NCBI GenBank assembly: GCA_021785265.1
Contig: JAJYFY010000006.1
Location: 1 to 44,013, forward strand
Length of the DNA stretch: 44,013 bases
From: Pseudomonadota bacterium
GTDB lineage: Bacteria; Pseudomonadota; Gammaproteobacteria; JAKAQQ01
Direction: 5' to 3'
Shown: positions 3,427-28,534 of the stretch, piece by piece
How the letters are laid out: each line of letters begins with the position of its first letter
Position numbering within the stretch: position 1 is the first letter of the stretch
Notes under the pieces: generated by a model
What the model saw: the letters and a program-made list of their open reading frames with translations, nothing else
Database searches by the model: none
What the model was told of the DNA's origin: nothing
Position numbers and translations under genes: made by a program

Positions 3427-4323
3427 TCAACTGCTACGCAGTCGGGCCTTGAGCTGTCGCATGAAATGTTCCACCCGGGAGGCGTTGTGCCCGATGTCCG
3501 AGAGCCCGATGCGCGATTCCGAACGCATGTCGATCCGCACCCCGCCGGGCACTTTTTCGATCCGGATCGCGACATCATCCTTGAAACCGAACCAGGCGGT
3601 GCGTGCGACCGCCTCGATCCGTCCCGTGCCCGGACTGGCAAAGGCAACCCGCCAACCCCGCTTCCGGACCAGCGCGAGGGCCTTGTCGTAGGCATCCGAC
3701 CGGGTCTCACCGTTCACGATCAGGGGACGGACCATCGGATAATAGACTTCCTGAACCGTAAACAGGCAACGGGCATCCCAGTGTGCACAGCTTTGGACCA
3801 CTTGGGCCGCGTGCGGGTTGATCCGTCCATGCCCGCGGGTGGCAAAAGCCATCACGGATTCCCGCTCGACCCGGCGGGCCTGAGCGTTACCCCCGCCGTA
3901 AACCGGGCTGTTCGGCACGTGCTTGAGGCGGGGCATGAGCGCGGTAAAGGCCGGTGGGTGCAGCGGATCGGTCGTGATGTCATGGATGGGCGGGACGGAT
4001 TCGGCCTTGAGCAGCCAGAAAAAGGGTACGCCGAAGCAAAAGACCCCCGCGAGGGCCAGAACCACATTGCCCAGAAGGAGCTTGGTGCGATGGGCGTAAA
4101 CCGAGGCAATGGCAGAGATGATGCCAAAAACGAGTGTGAGGATCCCCACATAGGCACCGTCGCGGATGGACTGGAATGCGCCTCCGAGGGACAGCCAGTG
4201 GGCTCGGTAGAGAGGTCCCGGCAGGATCGTGAGTCCGGCGGCCAAGAGGGCCAGGGCCAGGGTAATCACGGACAGCCAGAAGGCCGTCATCTGGGAACGC
4301 TTGGAGGCAACGGGTTGGATCAT
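3427..4323 (-). CDS. DUF1499 domain membrane protein
   Basis: A 298-residue protein with three hydrophobic segments in the first 110 residues (about 13-35, 55-75 and 84-107) and a soluble C-terminal domain matching DUF1499. That domain contains the LKHVPNSPVYG and CLFTVQEVYYP regions, the RTAWFGFKDDVAIRI strand pair and an RIDMRSESRIGLSDIG ending, typical of the family. The start at 4323 has GAGGAAG 5 nt upstream. It is the first gene of the minus-strand cluster that continues with TVP38, two glycosyltransferases and the hydroxylase. The molecular role of DUF1499 is unknown. The visible topology places the domain on one face of the inner membrane. Confidence 0.82.
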   Translation of the reverse strand: MIQPVASKRSQMTAFWLSVITLALALLAAGLTILPGPLYRAHWLSLGGAFQSIRDGAYVGILTLVFGIISAIASVYAHRTKLLLGNVVLALAGVFCFGVPFFWLLKAESVPPIHDITTDPLHPPAFTALMPRLKHVPNSPVYGGGNAQARRVERESVMAFATRGHGRINPHAAQVVQSCAHWDARCLFTVQEVYYPMVRPLIVNGETRSDAYDKALALVRKRGWRVAFASPGTGRIEAVARTAWFGFKDDVAIRIEKVPGGVRIDMRSESRIGLSDIGHNASRVEHFMRQLKARLRSS

Positions 4324-6090: not shown

Positions 6091-6888
6091 ATGCTCGCTG
6101 CCACCCCGCCCGTCGCACTCTTCATCGGGGGTCACGACCCTTCGGGTGGCGCCGGCCTCGTCGCCGACATCCAGACCGCAAGCCAGCTCGGGGTCCATCC
6201 CCTGACCCTGGTCTCCGCACTCACTGACCAGGATACGGAAAACGTCTTCGAGATGCGGCCCGTGGATCCCCAGTTCCTGGAGACCGCCTTCGCTCGGATT
6301 TTGGCGGACTGCCCTCCCGCCTGCCTCAAGATCGGGCTCATCGGATCCCCCGCCCTGATCGAGACCCTCGCGCGACTGCTCGCGGAGCATCCGGATCTTC
6401 CGGTGGTCTTCGATCCCGTCCTCCGCGCCAGCGGGGGATTCGAGTTCGGCCGGATCCCGGAATGGGTCGAGGCCATCCGCTCAAGTCTGCTCCGGCACAT
6501 CACACTCCTCACCCCGAATCTGGCCGAACTCGCAGCGCTTGCGCCCGATGCCGCAACTCCCGAAGCGGCTGCGCGAGCGCTCCAGGACCTGGGCACCCGG
6601 GCGATCCTCGTCACCGGGGCGGACCACGAACCCGGCTCACCGGAGGTCATGGCCTCGCTCTACCGCGATTCGGCTCCTCCCAAGATCTGGCGAGACCTCA
6701 GGCTACCCGGCGCCTTCCACGGCTCGGGCTGCACGCTCGCCGCCGCCATCACGAGCCTTTTGGCCCGTGGCTTTCCGCTTGAGCGGGCCATCGGGACGGC
6801 TCTCCACTGGACCCACGTGAGTCTTCTCCATGCCAGAGCACTCGGCCGGGGCGGACAGATCCCCTTCCGACTTTCCCTCTTCCGATGA
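6091..6888 (+). CDS. thiD: Hydroxymethylpyrimidine/phosphomethylpyrimidine kinase
   Basis: This 265-residue ribokinase-fold enzyme of thiamine synthesis phosphorylates HMP and HMP-phosphate to HMP-pyrophosphate in the cytoplasm. The N-terminal [12 protein letters not shown] substrate loop, [18 protein letters not shown] and the C-terminal [12 protein letters not shown] anion-hole motif with its catalytic cysteine region are all present. The ATG at 6091 begins the family-typical sequence; longer upstream readings lack homology. Its stop overlaps the start of thiE by four bases, so the two consecutive thiamine enzymes are coupled. Its product is a direct substrate of ThiE. A rubredoxin gene is divergent upstream. 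Confidence 0.93.
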
Positions 6889-7538
6889 AAGCGCCGGCGC
6901 GCGGCCTGTACCTGATTGTGGATCCGGAAGCTCATGACCGCCACGGCCAGGAAGACCTCCTGGACCGGATCTTGGGCGCGGGCGTGGCCTGTGTGCAACT
7001 GCGGGACAAGGAGCGGATCCCGGCCCGATCCACGGCCTTTGCCCGCCGTCTCCTCGAACTCTGCCGGGACCATGGTTTACCCCTCCTCATCAATGACGAT
7101 CCCCATTGGGCTCGTGATCTCGGTGCTGATGGCGTTCATCTCGGACAACATGATGGGGCGATCCGTGAGGCCCGCAAACTGCTCGGACCGGACGCCTGGA
7201 TCGGGGCCTCCGCATACGCCGACCTGGACCTCGCCCGGAAAGCCCTCCGTGAAGGAGCGGATTACGTCGCTTTCGGAAGTCTCTTCCCGTCCGTGACCAA
7301 GCCCCACGCCCCCCGCGCAACGCTGGACCTCCTCCGTGAGGCCAGCCAAACACTCGCGCATCCGATCTGTGCCATCGGCGGTATCCGCCCGGACAATGCC
7401 CGATCCGTCATGAACGCCGGGGCGGACTGGGTGGCGGTCATCTCAGCCGTCTGGAATGCACAGGATCCCCTGGCGGCCACGCGGGCCTTGGTCTCAGCCT
7501 GCTCGGCAGAGCGGGGAGAAGACGCGGGCGATCCCTAG
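6885..7538 (+). CDS. thiE: Thiamine phosphate synthase
   Basis: A 217-residue TIM-barrel enzyme that joins HMP-pyrophosphate with hydroxyethylthiazole phosphate to give thiamine phosphate. Visible motifs are VQLRDK, the NDD pyrophosphate/Mg site (LLINDDPHWA), GVHLGQHD, IGASAYADLDLA, FGSLFPSVTKP and the phosphate-binding CAIGGI and VAVISAV segments. The ATG lies within the thiD stop (ATGA). In many Gammaproteobacteria hemL follows thiE directly. Here it is about 3.4 kb away, separated by a toxin-antitoxin insert and an ABC transporter, which suggests later insertion between the two. Confidence 0.94.
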   Translation: MKAPARGLYLIVDPEAHDRHGQEDLLDRILGAGVACVQLRDKERIPARSTAFARRLLELCRDHGLPLLINDDPHWARDLGADGVHLGQHDGAIREARKLLGPDAWIGASAYADLDLARKALREGADYVAFGSLFPSVTKPHAPRATLDLLREASQTLAHPICAIGGIRPDNARSVMNAGADWVAVISAVWNAQDPLAATRALVSACSAERGEDAGDP

Positions 7539-9120: not shown

Positions 9121-9945
9121 CTAGCCGAGCCGCCGGTTCAGCCAGATCCCGATCACGAGCATCGGCAGGAGGGCCAGTAGTGCGATCAGACGCTGCCGAC
9201 GTGTCGCCCGGTCCTCCTTTTCCCAGCGGAAGAGAACGCTGCCGATCACGAGGCACAAAAGGCCGGTTACGATGAGCCCGGTCAGTTCCGGCCAGAGTCT
9301 CCAGAGGGGAACGTGCCCCTTCATCAGGTGCTCGAAGGAAAGCACCATGAGAGTGGGCGGGAGAAAGCGGCCAAAGCCCTGGATGAAAACGGGCAGATGC
9401 GAAAACTCGATCGAGGCCCCTGAAAAAAACAGGCAAACGAGGAACAGCAGCTGGAAGACGATCTGGGCTTCCTGCATGTTGTTCATGAGGCTCGCGATGA
9501 TCGAACCCAGACTGGCGATTGAAAATGCCCCGATGCTGTAGACGACCCAGAGATCGAAGACGGACGTTCCGACCGGCATGTGATAGAGCGTGCGCGCAGC
9601 GATCAGCATGATGGCCCCGACCCCGAGCGAAGTCAGATAGTTGGAGAGGATGCGGCTCACGATCCACTGCCAGGCCGTGAGTGGGGTCAGATGGTAGGGC
9701 CGGAGCATGCCACGCTCACGCATCATGACGGTGGTGGCGCCGTTCCCGAACAATCCGTTGGTGAGCGCCATCAGGGTCAGCACGGGGCCGAACAGGGCCG
9801 CGACTTCGAGTGGTCGGCCGTGGGCAAAAACCCCGGCGTAGAGAAAAAAGAATCCAAGAGGGAAAAACACCACGAAGAAAAAGGCGATCGGGGTCCGCCA
9901 GGAGAGTTTGAGACTGTTCCAGGTCAAAAGGAGCATGGCTTTCAT
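9121..9945 (-). CDS. ABC-2 type transporter permease
   Basis: This 274-residue membrane protein has six hydrophobic segments (around residues 17-40, 50-70, 95-120, 130-155, 160-185 and 220-240, with a short one at the end). Its profile matches ABC-2 permeases, including the GMLRPYHLTPLTAWQWI loop between the second and third segments. Such permeases export lipids, polysaccharides, drugs or antibiotics; the substrate here cannot be told. The start ATG overlaps the stop of the ATPase gene by four bases, so both subunits come from one transcript. It lies directly next to the IS1634 remnant, and its reverse-strand stop is at 9121-9123. Confidence 0.87.
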   Translation of the reverse strand: MKAMLLLTWNSLKLSWRTPIAFFFVVFFPLGFFFLYAGVFAHGRPLEVAALFGPVLTLMALTNGLFGNGATTVMMRERGMLRPYHLTPLTAWQWIVSRILSNYLTSLGVGAIMLIAARTLYHMPVGTSVFDLWVVYSIGAFSIASLGSIIASLMNNMQEAQIVFQLLFLVCLFFSGASIEFSHLPVFIQGFGRFLPPTLMVLSFEHLMKGHVPLWRLWPELTGLIVTGLLCLVIGSVLFRWEKEDRATRRQRLIALLALLPMLVIGIWLNRRLG

Positions 9946-19870: not shown

Positions 19871-20419
19871 ATGCACGCGCACCAAACCTCAAACTTGAGC
19901 GCTGACTTACCCTTGGCCGGTGCCGACTTCTGCGGCGACTGCGAGACGCCTCTGACTGCGTACTGGTCAAAGGGACGGAACAACCATCACCCCTACTACC
20001 TGCGCCCCAAGCGTGGCTGCGAGTCCTGCGGGAAGTCGATCCGCCGCAACGTGATTGAGGAGGAGTTCGAGCAACTGCTGCACACCATGCAGCCTTTCGC
20101 GACTCTATTCAAGGCCGCCCGCGAGCTGTTCAAAGACCTTTGGGACCATCGCCTTGCGTCGAGCGCGACTGTGCCGTCCGTCATCGCCGCCTACGAGACG
20201 CGCATCAAGGCGCTGGAGGATCGCAAGATAGTTCTGGCCGTAAAGATCATCAGGACCGGGCGACCGGTTCGCAGCTTCGACGACACAGTTAGAACCACAA
20301 TCGAGTTCCTCGCAAGTCCTTGGCAGCTATGAACTTCTGACCGCATCGAGGATAAGCGCACGGTCCTCAAGCTGGCTTTCGCGGACCGTCTGGCGTACAC
20401 GAAAAAAACAGGGGTTTAG
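19871..20419 (+). pseudogene. Large serine recombinase, C-terminal remnant with internal stop
   Basis: The frame encodes the zinc-ribbon and C-terminal region of a resolvase/invertase-type large serine recombinase: FCGDCETPLTAYWSKGR, PYYL, GCESCGKSIRRNVIEEEFEQLL, FKDLWDHRLA, SVIAAYETRIKALE and [23 protein letters not shown] at 20330-20332 interrupts the frame where Trp is usual. The same frame then continues with [25 protein letters not shown] to 20419. The hinge between DHRLA and SVIAAYE is shortened. The N-terminal catalytic domain is absent. It ends 62 bp before tRNA-Arg, the location typical of this family, so the tRNA neighbourhood was probably its integration site. Confidence 0.78.
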
Positions 20420-20481
20420 AACCCAAGCTTTTTACTTTAGCTTCAAGGTGTTAGTTCACTTCGAACGGCAAGATTTCGAGA

Positions 20482-20558
20482 TGGCGCGCCCGACAGGATT
20501 CGAACCTGTGACCCCAGCCTTCGGAGGGCTGTACTCTATCCAACTGAGCTACGGGCGC
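20482..20558 (-). tRNA. tRNA-Arg (anticodon CCG)
   Basis: On the minus strand the acceptor GCGCCCG (20558-20552) pairs with CGGGCGC (20492-20486), followed by discriminator G and an encoded CCA. The anticodon loop CTCCGAA between CAGCC and GGCTG gives CCG, and the T arm contains GGTTCGAATCC. The length is 77 nt with CCA. It reads CGG codons and bounds the accessory segment on the right. Confidence 0.96.
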
Positions 20559-24300: not shown

Positions 24301-25746
24301 CTAGAAAGAGAGCCACATGAGGAAGGAGAGGAAGTTGTTGCTGCTCGCATTCCGGCCCTGGCCGTTGTAGTTCGAGCTCGCTCCGAGGTAGCGGTTGAAG
24401 TCAGTGTATTGGAGTGAAAGCTCCACGTTCTGGGCCTCGAGGTAGTCCAGTTCGAGGAGGAACCCGTTGGTGTCCGGACTGCCATTGGCGCTCACAAGGC
24501 CTGCAGGATTGCCGGTCGCGGGCCCATAGAGGGCGGGATCCGGATTGCCCCAGACCCAGAAATAGCCCAGGCCGGCACCATAGCGATGCCGGAGCAGGTA
24601 CTGGCCGTTGACCCTGACCGTCTCGAGGGTGTCTTCTGCGTTGGGCTTGAAGCTGAGTGACGGAACCGGTTCCCAGTACTGGTTTTCGCCGATCCAGCTC
24701 ACATGCGCCGTCCAGATCTGATTGCCGGTCAGTCCCAGATACTGGATCTGGCTGTCGAGCCCGTAGTCGAGAAGACGATCGCTTGCCCCGGAGGCGACAG
24801 TCGTCGGGTAGACGTTGGTATCCATGCCGAGGGCGCCCACCTCCCAGTTCCAGGCTGCATAGTTCTGTTCGAAGGCGATCCGGAGGTAGGGAGCAATGTT
24901 CTGGATCGGGCCGAAGCTATAGGGACCGTAGACCTGGTTCGTGCCGGCGCCGATGCCGACAGCAGACCGGTAGAGATCGGCCTCAAGATAAAGCCAGTGG
25001 TCCTGGCCCTGGCCGAACAGATAGGCCAGATATCCGCCCAGTCCGGCAACCGGTTCACTGGCACCACTGGCCTGGACGATGTAGGGTGCCGGGATATCCC
25101 GGAGTGGCGAGTAGTTGGAGGAGTAGAAAGGCCAGTCCCAGTCGGGTACTGAATTCCACGGATCCGGTTCGGTCGGTGTGTTGTTGATGTCGATGCCGTA
25201 GATGAGGGTGCTGCCGTCCGGCCCGGCTTGGTGTTCGGCCCAACGGATGTCGGAATCATCCTGACCGAAAGCGCCGGTATGCGTATAGGTGAGGTGGAAA
25301 AACGCGCCGATGTGGCTCGCGATCCGTCCCGCATAGAAGAGACTCACCTGTTCAGGAAACTCGACGGAACCCTGACCCGTGGTTCCGCCCGATCCGAACT
25401 GGTTGGCCCCCCCCCCCTGGATGAACGAATCCGAGGCCTGGATGAAGATGGACAGTGGCGGGTCCCGATCCAGTGCCAGGGGAGCCATCCGCCGAAGCTT
25501 CTGCCGGAGCTGCTGCATGCCGGCCAGATTGGACGTGGTATACCCCCCCAGCTTGAACAGTCGGCCGATCGGGGTGAGTTGCGGGAACATCGTGTGGCAA
25601 ACCGAGCAGGACCAGCCCGTCTGCCGGGCGAAGCTCGGGATGGCATGGGCCGGACGGGGAGCGGTGAGGGTCGCGAGAGCCAGAAACGCAGCCAGGACGA
25701 GACTGCGCCCGGGATGATGTCTGGAGGGGGTGGCTCGCGTGTTCAT
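24301..25746 (-). CDS. Fused monoheme cytochrome c - outer membrane beta-barrel protein (Cyc2-like)
   Basis: A 481-residue exported protein. A signal peptide (about 1-35, ending PAHA) is followed by IPSFARQTGWSCSVCHTMFP. In this segment CSVCH (47-51) binds one heme c, and LTPIGRLFKLGGYTTSN follows. The rest consists of alternating aromatic/polar beta strands ending in Phe (FLMWLSF), the usual C-terminal signature of outer membrane proteins. The architecture equals the Cyc2 cytochrome-porin of iron oxidisers, which is about 480 residues. The same fold also occurs in uncharacterised methanotroph and sulfur-oxidiser proteins, so iron oxidation is inference. It is 52 bp downstream of a diheme cytochrome gene, a plausible periplasmic partner. 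The heme axial second ligand is not obvious. Confidence 0.75.
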   Translation of the reverse strand: MNTRATPSRHHPGRSLVLAAFLALATLTAPRPAHAIPSFARQTGWSCSVCHTMFPQLTPIGRLFKLGGYTTSNLAGMQQLRQKLRRMAPLALDRDPPLSIFIQASDSFIQGGGANQFGSGGTTGQGSVEFPEQVSLFYAGRIASHIGAFFHLTYTHTGAFGQDDSDIRWAEHQAGPDGSTLIYGIDINNTPTEPDPWNSVPDWDWPFYSSNYSPLRDIPAPYIVQASGASEPVAGLGGYLAYLFGQGQDHWLYLEADLYRSAVGIGAGTNQVYGPYSFGPIQNIAPYLRIAFEQNYAAWNWEVGALGMDTNVYPTTVASGASDRLLDYGLDSQIQYLGLTGNQIWTAHVSWIGENQYWEPVPSLSFKPNAEDTLETVRVNGQYLLRHRYGAGLGYFWVWGNPDPALYGPATGNPAGLVSANGSPDTNGFLLELDYLEAQNVELSLQYTDFNRYLGASSNYNGQGRNASSNNFLSFLMWLSF

Positions 25747-25798
25747 GAGACTCTCTCAGGTGGGGGGACCGGGATCCGGCCGGGTTCGGGGATTTCAC

Positions 25799-26425
25799 TC
25801 AGAGGGTGGTGAGATATTCGGCGACTGCCCGGATCTGGCGGTCCGTCAGGTGGATGGCGATCATGTGCATGATGTCGGCGTTCTTGTCATGGCGAACACC
25901 GCTTTTGAAGAACCGCAGCTGCTCTTCCAGGTATTCCACGTTCTGCCCCGCGAGCCGGGGATAGATGCCGCTTCCGGCAGCATCGGGCCCATGGCAACTC
26001 ATGCAGGCCGGAACATCCTGCTTCAGGATCCCTTGGTGAAAGATGACCTTGCCGGCCGCACTGAGCCGTCCACCCAGATGGGGCTTCGGGGCCGGCTGGG
26101 AAGCATACCAGCGGGCCACCGCCACGATTTCCCGGTTGCTGAGCGCCTCGCTCACCGGCCACATGTACATCACGCCCGGCGGATCCGAGCGGCTGCCGTC
26201 GCGAAAGGCCTTGAGCTGCTCCTCGATGTAGACCTCGCTCTGGTGGGCAAGACGGGGGATGAAGCCAAAACGCGGGTCGCTACCGTGGGTGCTGTGGCAC
26301 ATGTAGCAGCTGGTGAGCACGCGGGAGGGGGGAGGGACAGGTGTCGGTGGGGTTGCAGCGGAGGCCGTTTCCCCAAAACAGAACAGGAAGAAGATGAGGG
26401 CGGATCCAATGACGAGGCATTTCAT
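25799..26425 (-). CDS. Periplasmic diheme cytochrome c (c4-type)
   Basis: A 208-residue exported protein with a signal peptide (about 1-24). Two cytochrome c domains carry CYMCH (40-44) and CMSCH (141-145). Each is followed by the c4-type features PRLAHQSEVYIEEQLKAF and PRLAGQNVEYLEEQLRFF, and Met ligands near VMYMWPVSEAL and IMHMIAIHLT. It should carry two electrons in the periplasm, for example between an outer-membrane donor and an oxidase. GGAGGT lies 5 nt before the ATG at 26425. It is the first gene of a transcript with the cytochrome-porin. An FNR/CRP-type palindrome at 26491-26504 lies 66 bp upstream. Confidence 0.92.
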   Translation of the reverse strand: MKCLVIGSALIFFLFCFGETASAATPPTPVPPPSRVLTSCYMCHSTHGSDPRFGFIPRLAHQSEVYIEEQLKAFRDGSRSDPPGVMYMWPVSEALSNREIVAVARWYASQPAPKPHLGGRLSAAGKVIFHQGILKQDVPACMSCHGPDAAGSGIYPRLAGQNVEYLEEQLRFFKSGVRHDKNADIMHMIAIHLTDRQIRAVAEYLTTL

Positions 26426-26490
26426 GGGTGACCTCCAAGGAACTGGGCCATCCGGTCTCAACATGCTAAACGGTTTTCGAGGATGGTGTT

Positions 26491-26504
26491 TTGACTTATG
26501 TCAA
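26491..26504. promoter_or_regulatory. FNR/CRP-family palindrome upstream of the diheme cytochrome
   Basis: TTGAC-TTAT-GTCAA is a perfect palindrome fitting the TTGAY-N4-RTCAA pattern of FNR/ANR-type regulators. It overlaps the stop codon of the malic enzyme gene and is the last sequence before the cytochrome leader. A weak -10-like TTTAGC (26470-26465, minus) lies at a distance consistent with class II activation. Oxygen- or NO-responsive control of the cytochrome pair is inferred. Confidence 0.55.
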
Positions 26505-27814
26505 GGAGCTTTCCGATTGGCGGCCTGGCTGACCGCCTGGGCCACGGCCGCATGTGTCGCGGGGTCGAGGACATCCGGCAGAATCTCCCCGTCAGATGCG
26601 AGTTCAGCCATGCGGTAGGAGGCCGCCAGCAGCATCTCCCGTGTGAACCTTCGGGCCCGGGCATCGAGAGCGCCCCGGAAGAGGCCAGGGAAACCCAGGG
26701 CGTTGTTGACACTGCGTCCATCGGTGGCAAAGGCCGCTCCCGCTTCAAGCGCACGCCGGGCTGAGATTTCCGGCTCGGGATTGGACAGTGCGAAAATGAT
26801 CTGGCCGGACTGGATGGAGGTGGGATCAATGAGATCTTTGACCCCGGTGGTGGCGATCACGATCGATGCATCGTGCATGAGTTTTTCCAGGGTGACGAGG
26901 GTTCCGCCCAGATGCTCGAATTCGATGCGGGCCTCGGGCCGGAGGTCCGTTCCAATCAGGTCACGCACGCCGAAGTCACGAATGAGCCGGGCGATCCCGA
27001 TTCCTGCCGCACCAAGCCCCACCTGGCCCACGACCGCCGCATGAAGGTTGGTCCCGGTCTTGCGAACGGCCGAGAGAAGGGCTGCCAGCGTGACCACGGC
27101 GGTTCCGTCCTGGTCATCATGGAGGATGGGCTTCTCGAGCGCCTGTTCGAGGGCCCGGGTCACGGTGAAACAGGCTGGTGCCGCGATGTCTTCGAGATGG
27201 ATCGCGGCAAAACTCCCTTCGATGGCCAGTATGGTGTCCACGATTTTTTCCGGATCGGTTTCGCGGAGCAGGACCGGGATTCCCGAGAGACCGACCATTC
27301 GGCTGTAGATCATGGATTTTCCTTCCATTACAGGCAGCCCGGCCTGAGCCCCGATCGCGCCCAGTCCCAGGATGGCTGTTCCATTTGTAACGATGCCGAC
27401 GCTATTGCCGTAGTTGGTCCACTCCCGGATCTTTTCAGGATTGTCCCGGATGGCCAGACAAACGCGGGCCACTCCCGGGGTGTAGAGGTCGCGCAACTGC
27501 TGGAGCGAGTCGAGCGGAACCTTGGCCACCATCTCAATCTTGCCGCCCCGGTGACGATCGAAGACGCGGTCCGATTTGCCGACGAGACGGGCGTTCGGCA
27601 AGGTCGCCAGCCGTTCGGTGACCTGCCGCCCGGTTTCCTCATCGATCTCGATCGTGATCTCCCAGACGGTCCGATCCTGATGGCGGCGGACGGCGGTCAG
27701 GTGGTCAATCACAACGCCACACTCACCGATTGCAGTGAGGATGCGGCCCAAGCTGCCTGGCCGGTGTTCCGATTCGACAAGAAGGATTTCCGGGATCTGC
27801 ATGCATTTGATCAT
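26501..27814 (-). CDS. NAD(P)-dependent malic enzyme with N-terminal ACT domain
   Basis: A 437-residue enzyme. Residues about 6-85 form an ACT domain (EILLVESEHRPGSLGRILTAI), a small-molecule sensor. The rest is a short bacterial malic enzyme that decarboxylates malate to pyruvate. It has YTPGVARV, WTNYGNSVGIVTNGTAILG, GLPVMEGKSMIY (catalytic Lys), HLEDIAAPACF, ILHDDQDGTAVV (metal Asp), the Rossmann GLGAAGIGIARL, and a FALSNPEPEI end. An amino acid or other ligand probably regulates activity through ACT; which one is unknown. The ATG at 27814 has no clear ribosome-binding site, and 27802 is an alternative. It is divergent from the cytochrome gene at 27977. Confidence 0.92.
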   Translation of the reverse strand: MIKCMQIPEILLVESEHRPGSLGRILTAIGECGVVIDHLTAVRRHQDRTVWEITIEIDEETGRQVTERLATLPNARLVGKSDRVFDRHRGGKIEMVAKVPLDSLQQLRDLYTPGVARVCLAIRDNPEKIREWTNYGNSVGIVTNGTAILGLGAIGAQAGLPVMEGKSMIYSRMVGLSGIPVLLRETDPEKIVDTILAIEGSFAAIHLEDIAAPACFTVTRALEQALEKPILHDDQDGTAVVTLAALLSAVRKTGTNLHAAVVGQVGLGAAGIGIARLIRDFGVRDLIGTDLRPEARIEFEHLGGTLVTLEKLMHDASIVIATTGVKDLIDPTSIQSGQIIFALSNPEPEISARRALEAGAAFATDGRSVNNALGFPGLFRGALDARARRFTREMLLAASYRMAELASDGEILPDVLDPATHAAVAQAVSQAANRKAP

Positions 27815-27976: not shown

Positions 27977-28534
27977 ATGGATCTTCAAGATCGCAAGTTC
28001 ATTCAGACTTTCTCCATCTTCCTGCTGGCGCTGCTGGTCGTTTCGGTTGTCCTGATCTTTCTAGCGAATGGTCTCGCCATCCAGTCGCGTGATGAAAGTT
28101 TTGGGGGTTCCCGTTTGGCCGAGCGGCAGGCCTACATGCGGTTGCGGCCGGTGGGCCAAGTCCGCCTCGAATCAAAATCCCAGCCGGGTGTACCCGCCAC
28201 GGCGCCCATGACGGCAACCGTCAAGGGCCCTGCTCTCAAGACACCGGCCGAGATCAAACATTTCATGACAGCCCAGGGCTGTTTCGCCTGTCACGCCATC
28301 GACAGTAAGGTGGTGGGGCCGGCCTATGCCTGGGTGGCTTATCGGTTCCGTGCACAGGTTGCGGCAGCCACCGTAAAACTCGCCCACAAGATCATTGCGG
28401 GTGGCACCGGCTACTGGAATCCTTGGACAGGTGGGATTGCCATGCCGGCTCACCCCAACCTGACCTTGGCCCAAGCCGAAACCTTAGCCCGCTGGGTGCT
28501 TGCCCGGCATCCTCTGGCGCCACCCAAGCCCTGA
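27977..28534 (+). CDS. Membrane-anchored monoheme cytochrome c
   Basis: A 185-residue protein with an uncleaved N-terminal helix (about 11-33) that anchors it to the inner membrane, facing the periplasm. It has a linker of about 60 residues and a class I cytochrome domain with CFACH at 102-106. KVVGPAYAWVAYRF follows the heme site, GGIAMPAHP carries the Met ligand, and the C-terminal helix LTLAQAETLARWVL resembles c-551/c-5 cytochromes. A GGAG sequence precedes the ATG. It likely passes electrons between the quinol-oxidising complex or soluble cytochromes and a terminal reductase, but no partner gene is adjacent. It converges with ubiK, with 25 bp between their stops. Confidence 0.88.
   Translation: MDLQDRKFIQTFSIFLLALLVVSVVLIFLANGLAIQSRDESFGGSRLAERQAYMRLRPVGQVRLESKSQPGVPATAPMTATVKGPALKTPAEIKHFMTAQGCFACHAIDSKVVGPAYAWVAYRFRAQVAAATVKLAHKIIAGGTGYWNPWTGGIAMPAHPNLTLAQAETLARWVLARHPLAPPKP

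Follow-up and report, generated by a model that had tools for sequence, protein, structure and literature searches.

The gene cyc2 commonly serves as a marker for iron oxidation, and its product is recognized by the motif AXPXFAR[Q/K][T/Y] shortly before a CXXCH heme site, with PXL after it (PMC8406198). In the Zetaproteobacteria cyc2 is ubiquitous and often double (PMC7029218). In Acidithiobacillus ferrooxidans, the Cyc1B–Cyc2B pair increases during anaerobic growth on Fe(III) with S0 or H2, and Cyc2 has been proposed as a terminal Fe(III) reductase (PMC7735108, PMC8790237). Among genes controlled by FNR, E. coli ubiUV and ubiT are proven cases (PMC10470549). The present study suggests that a small acid-mine-drainage bacterium uses a cyc1–cyc2 pair when oxygen runs out, most likely dumping electrons on ferric iron. 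Specifically, a stretch of 44,013 nt of its DNA (contig JAJYFY010000006.1; hereafter the window) carries the pair behind an FNR-type box (Table 1). Cyc2, Cyc1 and FNR promoters were already known; what is new is a conserved class II FNR promoter on cyc1–cyc2 and its enrichment in one branch of the Cyc2 family, neither of which was found in the literature searched.

Table 1. Coordinates of the cyc1–cyc2 locus and its neighbors in the window
Feature	Position	Strand	Remarks
cyc2, fused monoheme cytochrome c and predicted outer-membrane barrel	24301..25746	-	481 aa
Cyc2 signal-peptide-like segment, residues 1-35	25642..25746	-	cleavage inferred from PRPAHA/IPSFARQ
Cyc2-defining motif AIPSFARQT	25618..25644	-	fits AXPXFAR[Q/K][T/Y]; motif definition, PMC8406198
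Cyc2 single heme c site CSVCH	25594..25608	-	sequence
cyc1, periplasmic diheme c4-type cytochrome	25799..26425	-	208 aa; best solved relative 1h1o
Cyc1 heme site 1, CYMCH	26294..26308	-	sequence
Cyc1 heme site 2, CMSCH	25991..26005	-	sequence
-10 hexamer TAGCAT	26463..26468	-	22 nt after box; inferred transcription start 26456
FNR-type box TTGACATAAGTCAA	26491..26504	-	centre -41.5 from inferred transcription start; conserved in L001, L002, L010, L093, L095
NAD(P)-malic enzyme with ACT domain, upstream of cyc1	26501..27814	-	syntenic with cyc1-cyc2 in two genera
Monoheme cytochrome c, N-terminal membrane anchor	27977..28534	+	divergent; synteny in L001, L002, L093, L095

The cytochrome–porin and its diheme partner

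The larger gene of the pair is cyc2 by the published signature. After a signal-peptide-like start its product reads AIPSFARQTGWS-CSVCH-TMFPQL, that is, AIPSFARQT, then GWS and the heme site, then TMF and the PQL that corresponds to PXL; CSVCH is the one CXXCH in the entire chain, which is longer than the at least 365–400 residues asked of a Cyc2. An outer-membrane barrel is predicted from family membership, from an amino-acid composition close to that of OmpF, and from the C-terminal aromatic residue: the last residue is Phe, and a C-terminal W-x-F/W/Y is conserved among Cyc2 homologs. Amphipathicity by itself separates the protein poorly from soluble controls, and the likeness to OmpF is one of composition and C terminus only. 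Profile searches with the region downstream of the heme gave no Pfam, NCBIfam, or PDB match and no barrel relative, as expected, since Cyc2 barrels are poorly conserved. An AlphaFold model of the barrel, built on a 3-sequence alignment, reached a pLDDT of 25 and was discarded.

The cyc1 gene lies first, on the same strand, with 52 nt between the two genes. Its open reading frame spans 26464–25799, and the ATG at 26425, with a ribosome-binding site and a signal peptide, is the preferred start. The encoded protein has two CXXCH sites and whole-chain homology to A. ferrooxidans Cyc1/c-552 (1h1o; 44% identity over residues 30–208, E 1.8e-44). Thus, the two assignments made in the initial annotation, a Cyc2-like protein and a diheme cytochrome directly upstream of it, both stand, and both proteins are predicted to load heme. 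In one genome (G008) cyc2 is apparently lacking, but cyc1 runs off the contig edge, which makes the absence unsafe. In another (G005), the intact gene is followed by the broken remnant of a second cyc2, interrupted by two stops (L093, 6352–6462), a trace of duplication.

A tree of 117 Cyc2 homologs drawn from the class, the phylum, and named plasmids has three branches. The main Cyc2 of family f207 falls in one and its second Cyc2 in another; judged by its ubiquitous, often double cyc2, f207 almost certainly represents the Zetaproteobacteria, and its two branches correspond to Clusters 1 and 3. The window Cyc2 groups with Cyc2 homologs with a support of 100*/99* and falls in the third branch, together with plasmid proteins from Acidiphilium, Burkholderiales, and Methylocystis. 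It is therefore Cluster 2 by elimination, in a tree without a characterized Cluster 2 sequence; A. ferrooxidans Cyc2 has been linked to taxa like these (PMC10654088). The tree placement proposed in the initial annotation, carried out in part, puts the protein inside the Cyc2 family and in neither Cluster 1 nor Cluster 3. Its remark that this subfamily extends to organisms that are not recognized iron oxidizers is borne out as well, the branch including Caballeronia, Paraburkholderia, Ideonella, Methylocystis, and Acidiphilium plasmids. The presence of the branch in bacteria for which no iron cycling is known would suit a conduit that is likewise switched by FNR but serves some other substrate, such as sulfide, humics, solid conductors, or partner cells, and a sequence cannot reveal the substrate. 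However, iron is the substrate of the Cyc2 proteins in published assays, and one heme is considered a good match for dissolved Fe (PMC8406198), which makes a non-iron substrate improbable in our judgment.

The FNR-type box and its putative regulator

The box ahead of both genes, TTGACTTATGTCAA, is an exact palindrome, and the TGA stop (26501–26503) of the upstream malic enzyme gene falls inside it. Taken by itself, within the window, it is only mildly unusual: 0.11 sites of the form TTGAY-N4-RTCAA are expected, and 10 of 100 shuffles contain at least one. In the 1.78-Mb genome there are 3 copies of the perfect TTGAC-N4-GTCAA, with ~1 estimated from base composition. Six genomes, from two genera, have a box before cyc1, often as TTGAT/GTCAA, and the forms found upstream of cyc1 in the family (TTGACATAAGTCAA, TTGATGCCGGTCAA, TTGATATTCGTCAA, TTGACACCGGTCAA, and TTGATCTTCGTCAT) have differing flanks. 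All six of these promoters have a TAnnnT hexamer at a distance of precisely 22 nt downstream of the box. The box is thereby centred on −41.5, where FNR sits in class II promoters. The region thus has the make-up of a class II FNR promoter, with TTGAY-N4-RTCAA at −41.5 from an inferred start site and a correctly spaced −10 element; a search for an activator-independent σ70 promoter for cyc1–cyc2 found none. It is the conservation of the palindrome seen in the initial annotation, at an invariant promoter spacing across six genomes, together with its genomic company, that marks it as more than chance.

The same arrangement extends beyond the family. With the window family excluded, a perfect box lies ≤450 nt upstream of 12 of the 45 same-branch cyc2 genes, where dinucleotide shuffles predict 0.1, and none of these genes has such a box with a spacer of 2, 3, or 5–8. 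In the other two branches the box precedes 3 of 62 cyc2 genes (Fisher p 0.0018 with kinship ignored), and among Cluster 1 genes it is rare (2/34). A −10 element at 22 nt after the box is over-represented beyond the family (4/15; nominal p 1.2e-5 for one of 30 offsets).

The genome of the window (G000) encodes a canonical four-cysteine FNR adjoining hemN (L014), with C-X2-C-X5-C plus a central Cys and the recognition helix E-T-V-S-R (E-x2-S-R); its best NCBIfam model is Fnr, at 218.9 bits just below the cut-off of 228. This protein would be expected to bind the box. The other intergenic FNR boxes that the family shares lie ahead of fnr/hemN, of ubiU/ubiT, and of a B12-dependent radical SAM gene, and this company places cyc1–cyc2 in a small gene set for life without oxygen. 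The radical SAM gene, of the DUF4070 B12-binding type, has an FNR-type box in front of it in several family genomes (L166, 4338–6278; L159, L165, and L141), and a relative of it lies near cyc2 on a Methylocystis plasmid (L135).

Were the box instead a chance palindrome or the site of another Crp-family protein, the pair would be constitutive or otherwise controlled. The genomic count of perfect boxes is near the composition expectation, the malic enzyme stop codon constrains part of the box in genus 1, and two additional, weak Crp-type HTH matches exist in G000. Yet box and exact spacing are conserved in two genera, and in genus 2 the box is positioned differently relative to the malic enzyme gene. 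Moreover, at least one Crp/FNR protein exceeds the Pfam cut-off in each of the six box-bearing genomes, whereas a sister-genus genome with a degenerate box (G006, 96% complete) has no such protein over that cut-off. Together with the recurrence of the box in same-branch genes of other families at one spacer length only, these observations make a fortuitous or foreign site very improbable. Of the oxygen or NO switch put forward in the initial annotation, the oxygen part is well supported by the box, its spacing, the four-cysteine FNR, and the company of other FNR boxes. Regulation by NO was rejected, as neither NorB nor a nitrate reductase was found in nine incomplete family genomes, in which the only heme-copper oxidase is of the CtaD type and the only PF00384 protein is NuoG, where read.

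Gene company, respiratory chain, and direction of electron flow

The two-gene operon could constitute a minimal conduit for extracellular electron transfer. Under oxygen limitation, FNR whose iron–sulfur cluster is intact would bind TTGAC-N4-GTCAA at −41.5 and activate the class II promoter, with its −10 element 22 nt downstream. Cyc2 would hold one heme c at the mouth of the outer-membrane barrel and Cyc1 would carry electrons through the periplasm, in a chain that may run from the quinol pool through c-type cytochromes, possibly including the anchored monoheme cytochrome next door, to Cyc1, Cyc2, and Fe(III) outside. Flow in the opposite sense, from Fe(II) inward, is conceivable in principle, and both the order of partners and the direction of flow are proposals. 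With a probability that we put just above even, cyc1–cyc2 is an FNR-activated low-oxygen conduit that more likely exports electrons to Fe(III) than oxidizes Fe(II).

Elsewhere, too, cyc2 keeps company with genes for heme and ubiquinone synthesis. In G155 (L073, 3338–7509), cyc2, a monoheme cytochrome, hemN, fnr, and a malic enzyme relative lie within ~5.5 kb, and an FNR box precedes cyc2. The cytochrome beside cyc2 there is a relative (52%) of the monoheme cytochrome of the window, which is a possible inner-membrane partner of the pair. On the conjugative plasmid pACRY03 of Acidiphilium cryptum JF-5 (L130, 1624–6293), cyc2 adjoins the ubiT–ubiU–ubiV operon for anaerobic ubiquinone synthesis, with a perfect FNR box, TTGATTTAGATCAA, at 4262, before ubiT; this strain is an Fe(III) reducer (PMC8790237). 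The same cyc2–ubiTUV stretch is present on a plasmid of A. ferrooxidans YQ-N3 (CP084173.1, L131), through either recent transfer or a contaminated assembly, and the Cyc2 of this plasmid was rejected as an A. ferrooxidans reference because it matches the Acidiphilium plasmid. In L002 the malic enzyme match is in three pieces and a TIGR03032 gene is a fragment (6325–7227 and 9580–9858), with cyc1–cyc2 intact; in the window, a recombinase zinc-ribbon fragment lies beside a tRNA gene (19871–20558; tRNA at 20485–20558, minus strand), possibly the edge of an integrated element.

The respiratory inventory covers nine family genomes that are 65–96% complete, so that single absences are provisional and agreement across all nine is what counts; for G000 itself, at 85% completeness, the reading took in only a portion of the DNA. 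Across the nine, cbb3 and NorB were not found, nor were nitrate, DMSO, thiosulfate, or arsenate reductases of the PF00384 family, each genome having one PF00384 protein, NuoG where read. The bd oxidase is present in six. No protein of the nine exceeds the TIGR03095 cut-off for true rusticyanin, and rusticyanin was accordingly rejected as a partner. In 328 kb sampled of G000, simple motifs revealed no bc1, hydrogenase, or RuBisCO.

The main competitor of the export reading is low-oxygen oxidation of Fe(II), in which the FNR-activated conduit of a microaerophilic acid-mine iron oxidizer would pass electrons inward via Cyc2 and Cyc1 to aa3. In A. ferrooxidans, Mariprofundus, and Leptospirillum, Cyc2 acts as an Fe(II) oxidase (PMC8406198), and the A. 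ferrooxidans protein, being characterized, counts against outward flow. Furthermore, A. ferrooxidans Cyc1 feeds an aa3 oxidase (PMC8790237), and aa3-type CtaD occurs in all nine genomes, where COX1, as far as read, is of this type only; the aa3 oxidase could still accept electrons from Cyc1. The named relatives, moreover, are metagenome bins. However, FNR works at very low oxygen levels, at which aa3 accepts electrons poorly, and cbb3 was not found in the nine genomes; coxA lies away from cyc2 and occurs also in family genomes in which no cyc2 was found; rusticyanin over the cut-off is lacking; and the pair is co-regulated with oxygen-independent ubiquinone and heme synthesis. We therefore regard inward Fe(II) oxidation as somewhat unlikely.

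The initial annotation had proposed a route from outside the cell to the periplasm. The Cyc1–Cyc2 conduit itself is supported, but three points argue that inward flow is not the likelier direction: the control by FNR, the shared regulation with genes that make ubiquinone and heme anaerobically, and the anaerobic Cyc1B–Cyc2B precedent. Outward flow is instead favored because HemN and UbiUT would make heme and ubiquinone without oxygen under the same conditions. Since the bd oxidase offers another low-oxygen outlet, membership of the FNR regulon alone is no proof of anaerobic growth. For the large Cyc2 branch as a whole (Cluster 2 by elimination), we suggest only tentatively that it belongs in good part to the FNR regulon and serves as an anaerobic outward conduit for Fe(III) respiration, alongside oxygen-independent ubiquinone synthesis.

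If this branch-wide reading is true, finding cyc2 in such bacteria points to iron reduction, or to iron cycling in both directions, instead of aerobic iron oxidation. If FNR activates the whole branch in the absence of oxygen, metagenome surveys that score these genes as iron oxidizers may be mistaken about which way the electrons move. An FNR promoter would also explain in simple genetic terms why Cyc1B–Cyc2B increases anaerobically in A. ferrooxidans, and the question of the acidophile Fe(III) reductase becomes testable with one promoter and the removal of one gene.

Relation to known systems

The locus is most reminiscent of A. ferrooxidans Cyc1B–Cyc2B (DN052_01245–01250), which, compared by description, is likewise a stand-alone pair of diheme cytochrome and cytochrome–porin outside the rus operon. 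A. ferrooxidans, however, also has rusticyanin, whereas the window family has none over the cut-off. In the rus operon of Acidithiobacillus, Acidiferrobacter, and Acidihalobacter (cyc2-cyc1-cup-coxBACD-rus), cyc2 and cyc1 are adjacent, as in the window, but here the order is cyc1–cyc2 and none of cup, coxBACD, or rus is a neighbor. The window protein shares its motif, single heme, and predicted barrel with the Cluster 1 Cyc2 of Zetaproteobacteria and Gallionellaceae (Cyc2PV-1) and yet falls in a separate, well-supported branch. Like the FNR-activated promoters of E. coli ubiUV and ubiT (PMC10470549), the putative cyc1–cyc2 promoter has a TTGAY-type site upstream, here at −41.5, in a genome that encodes a four-cysteine FNR. 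In contrast to those known cases, the target in the window is an outer-membrane cytochrome–porin.
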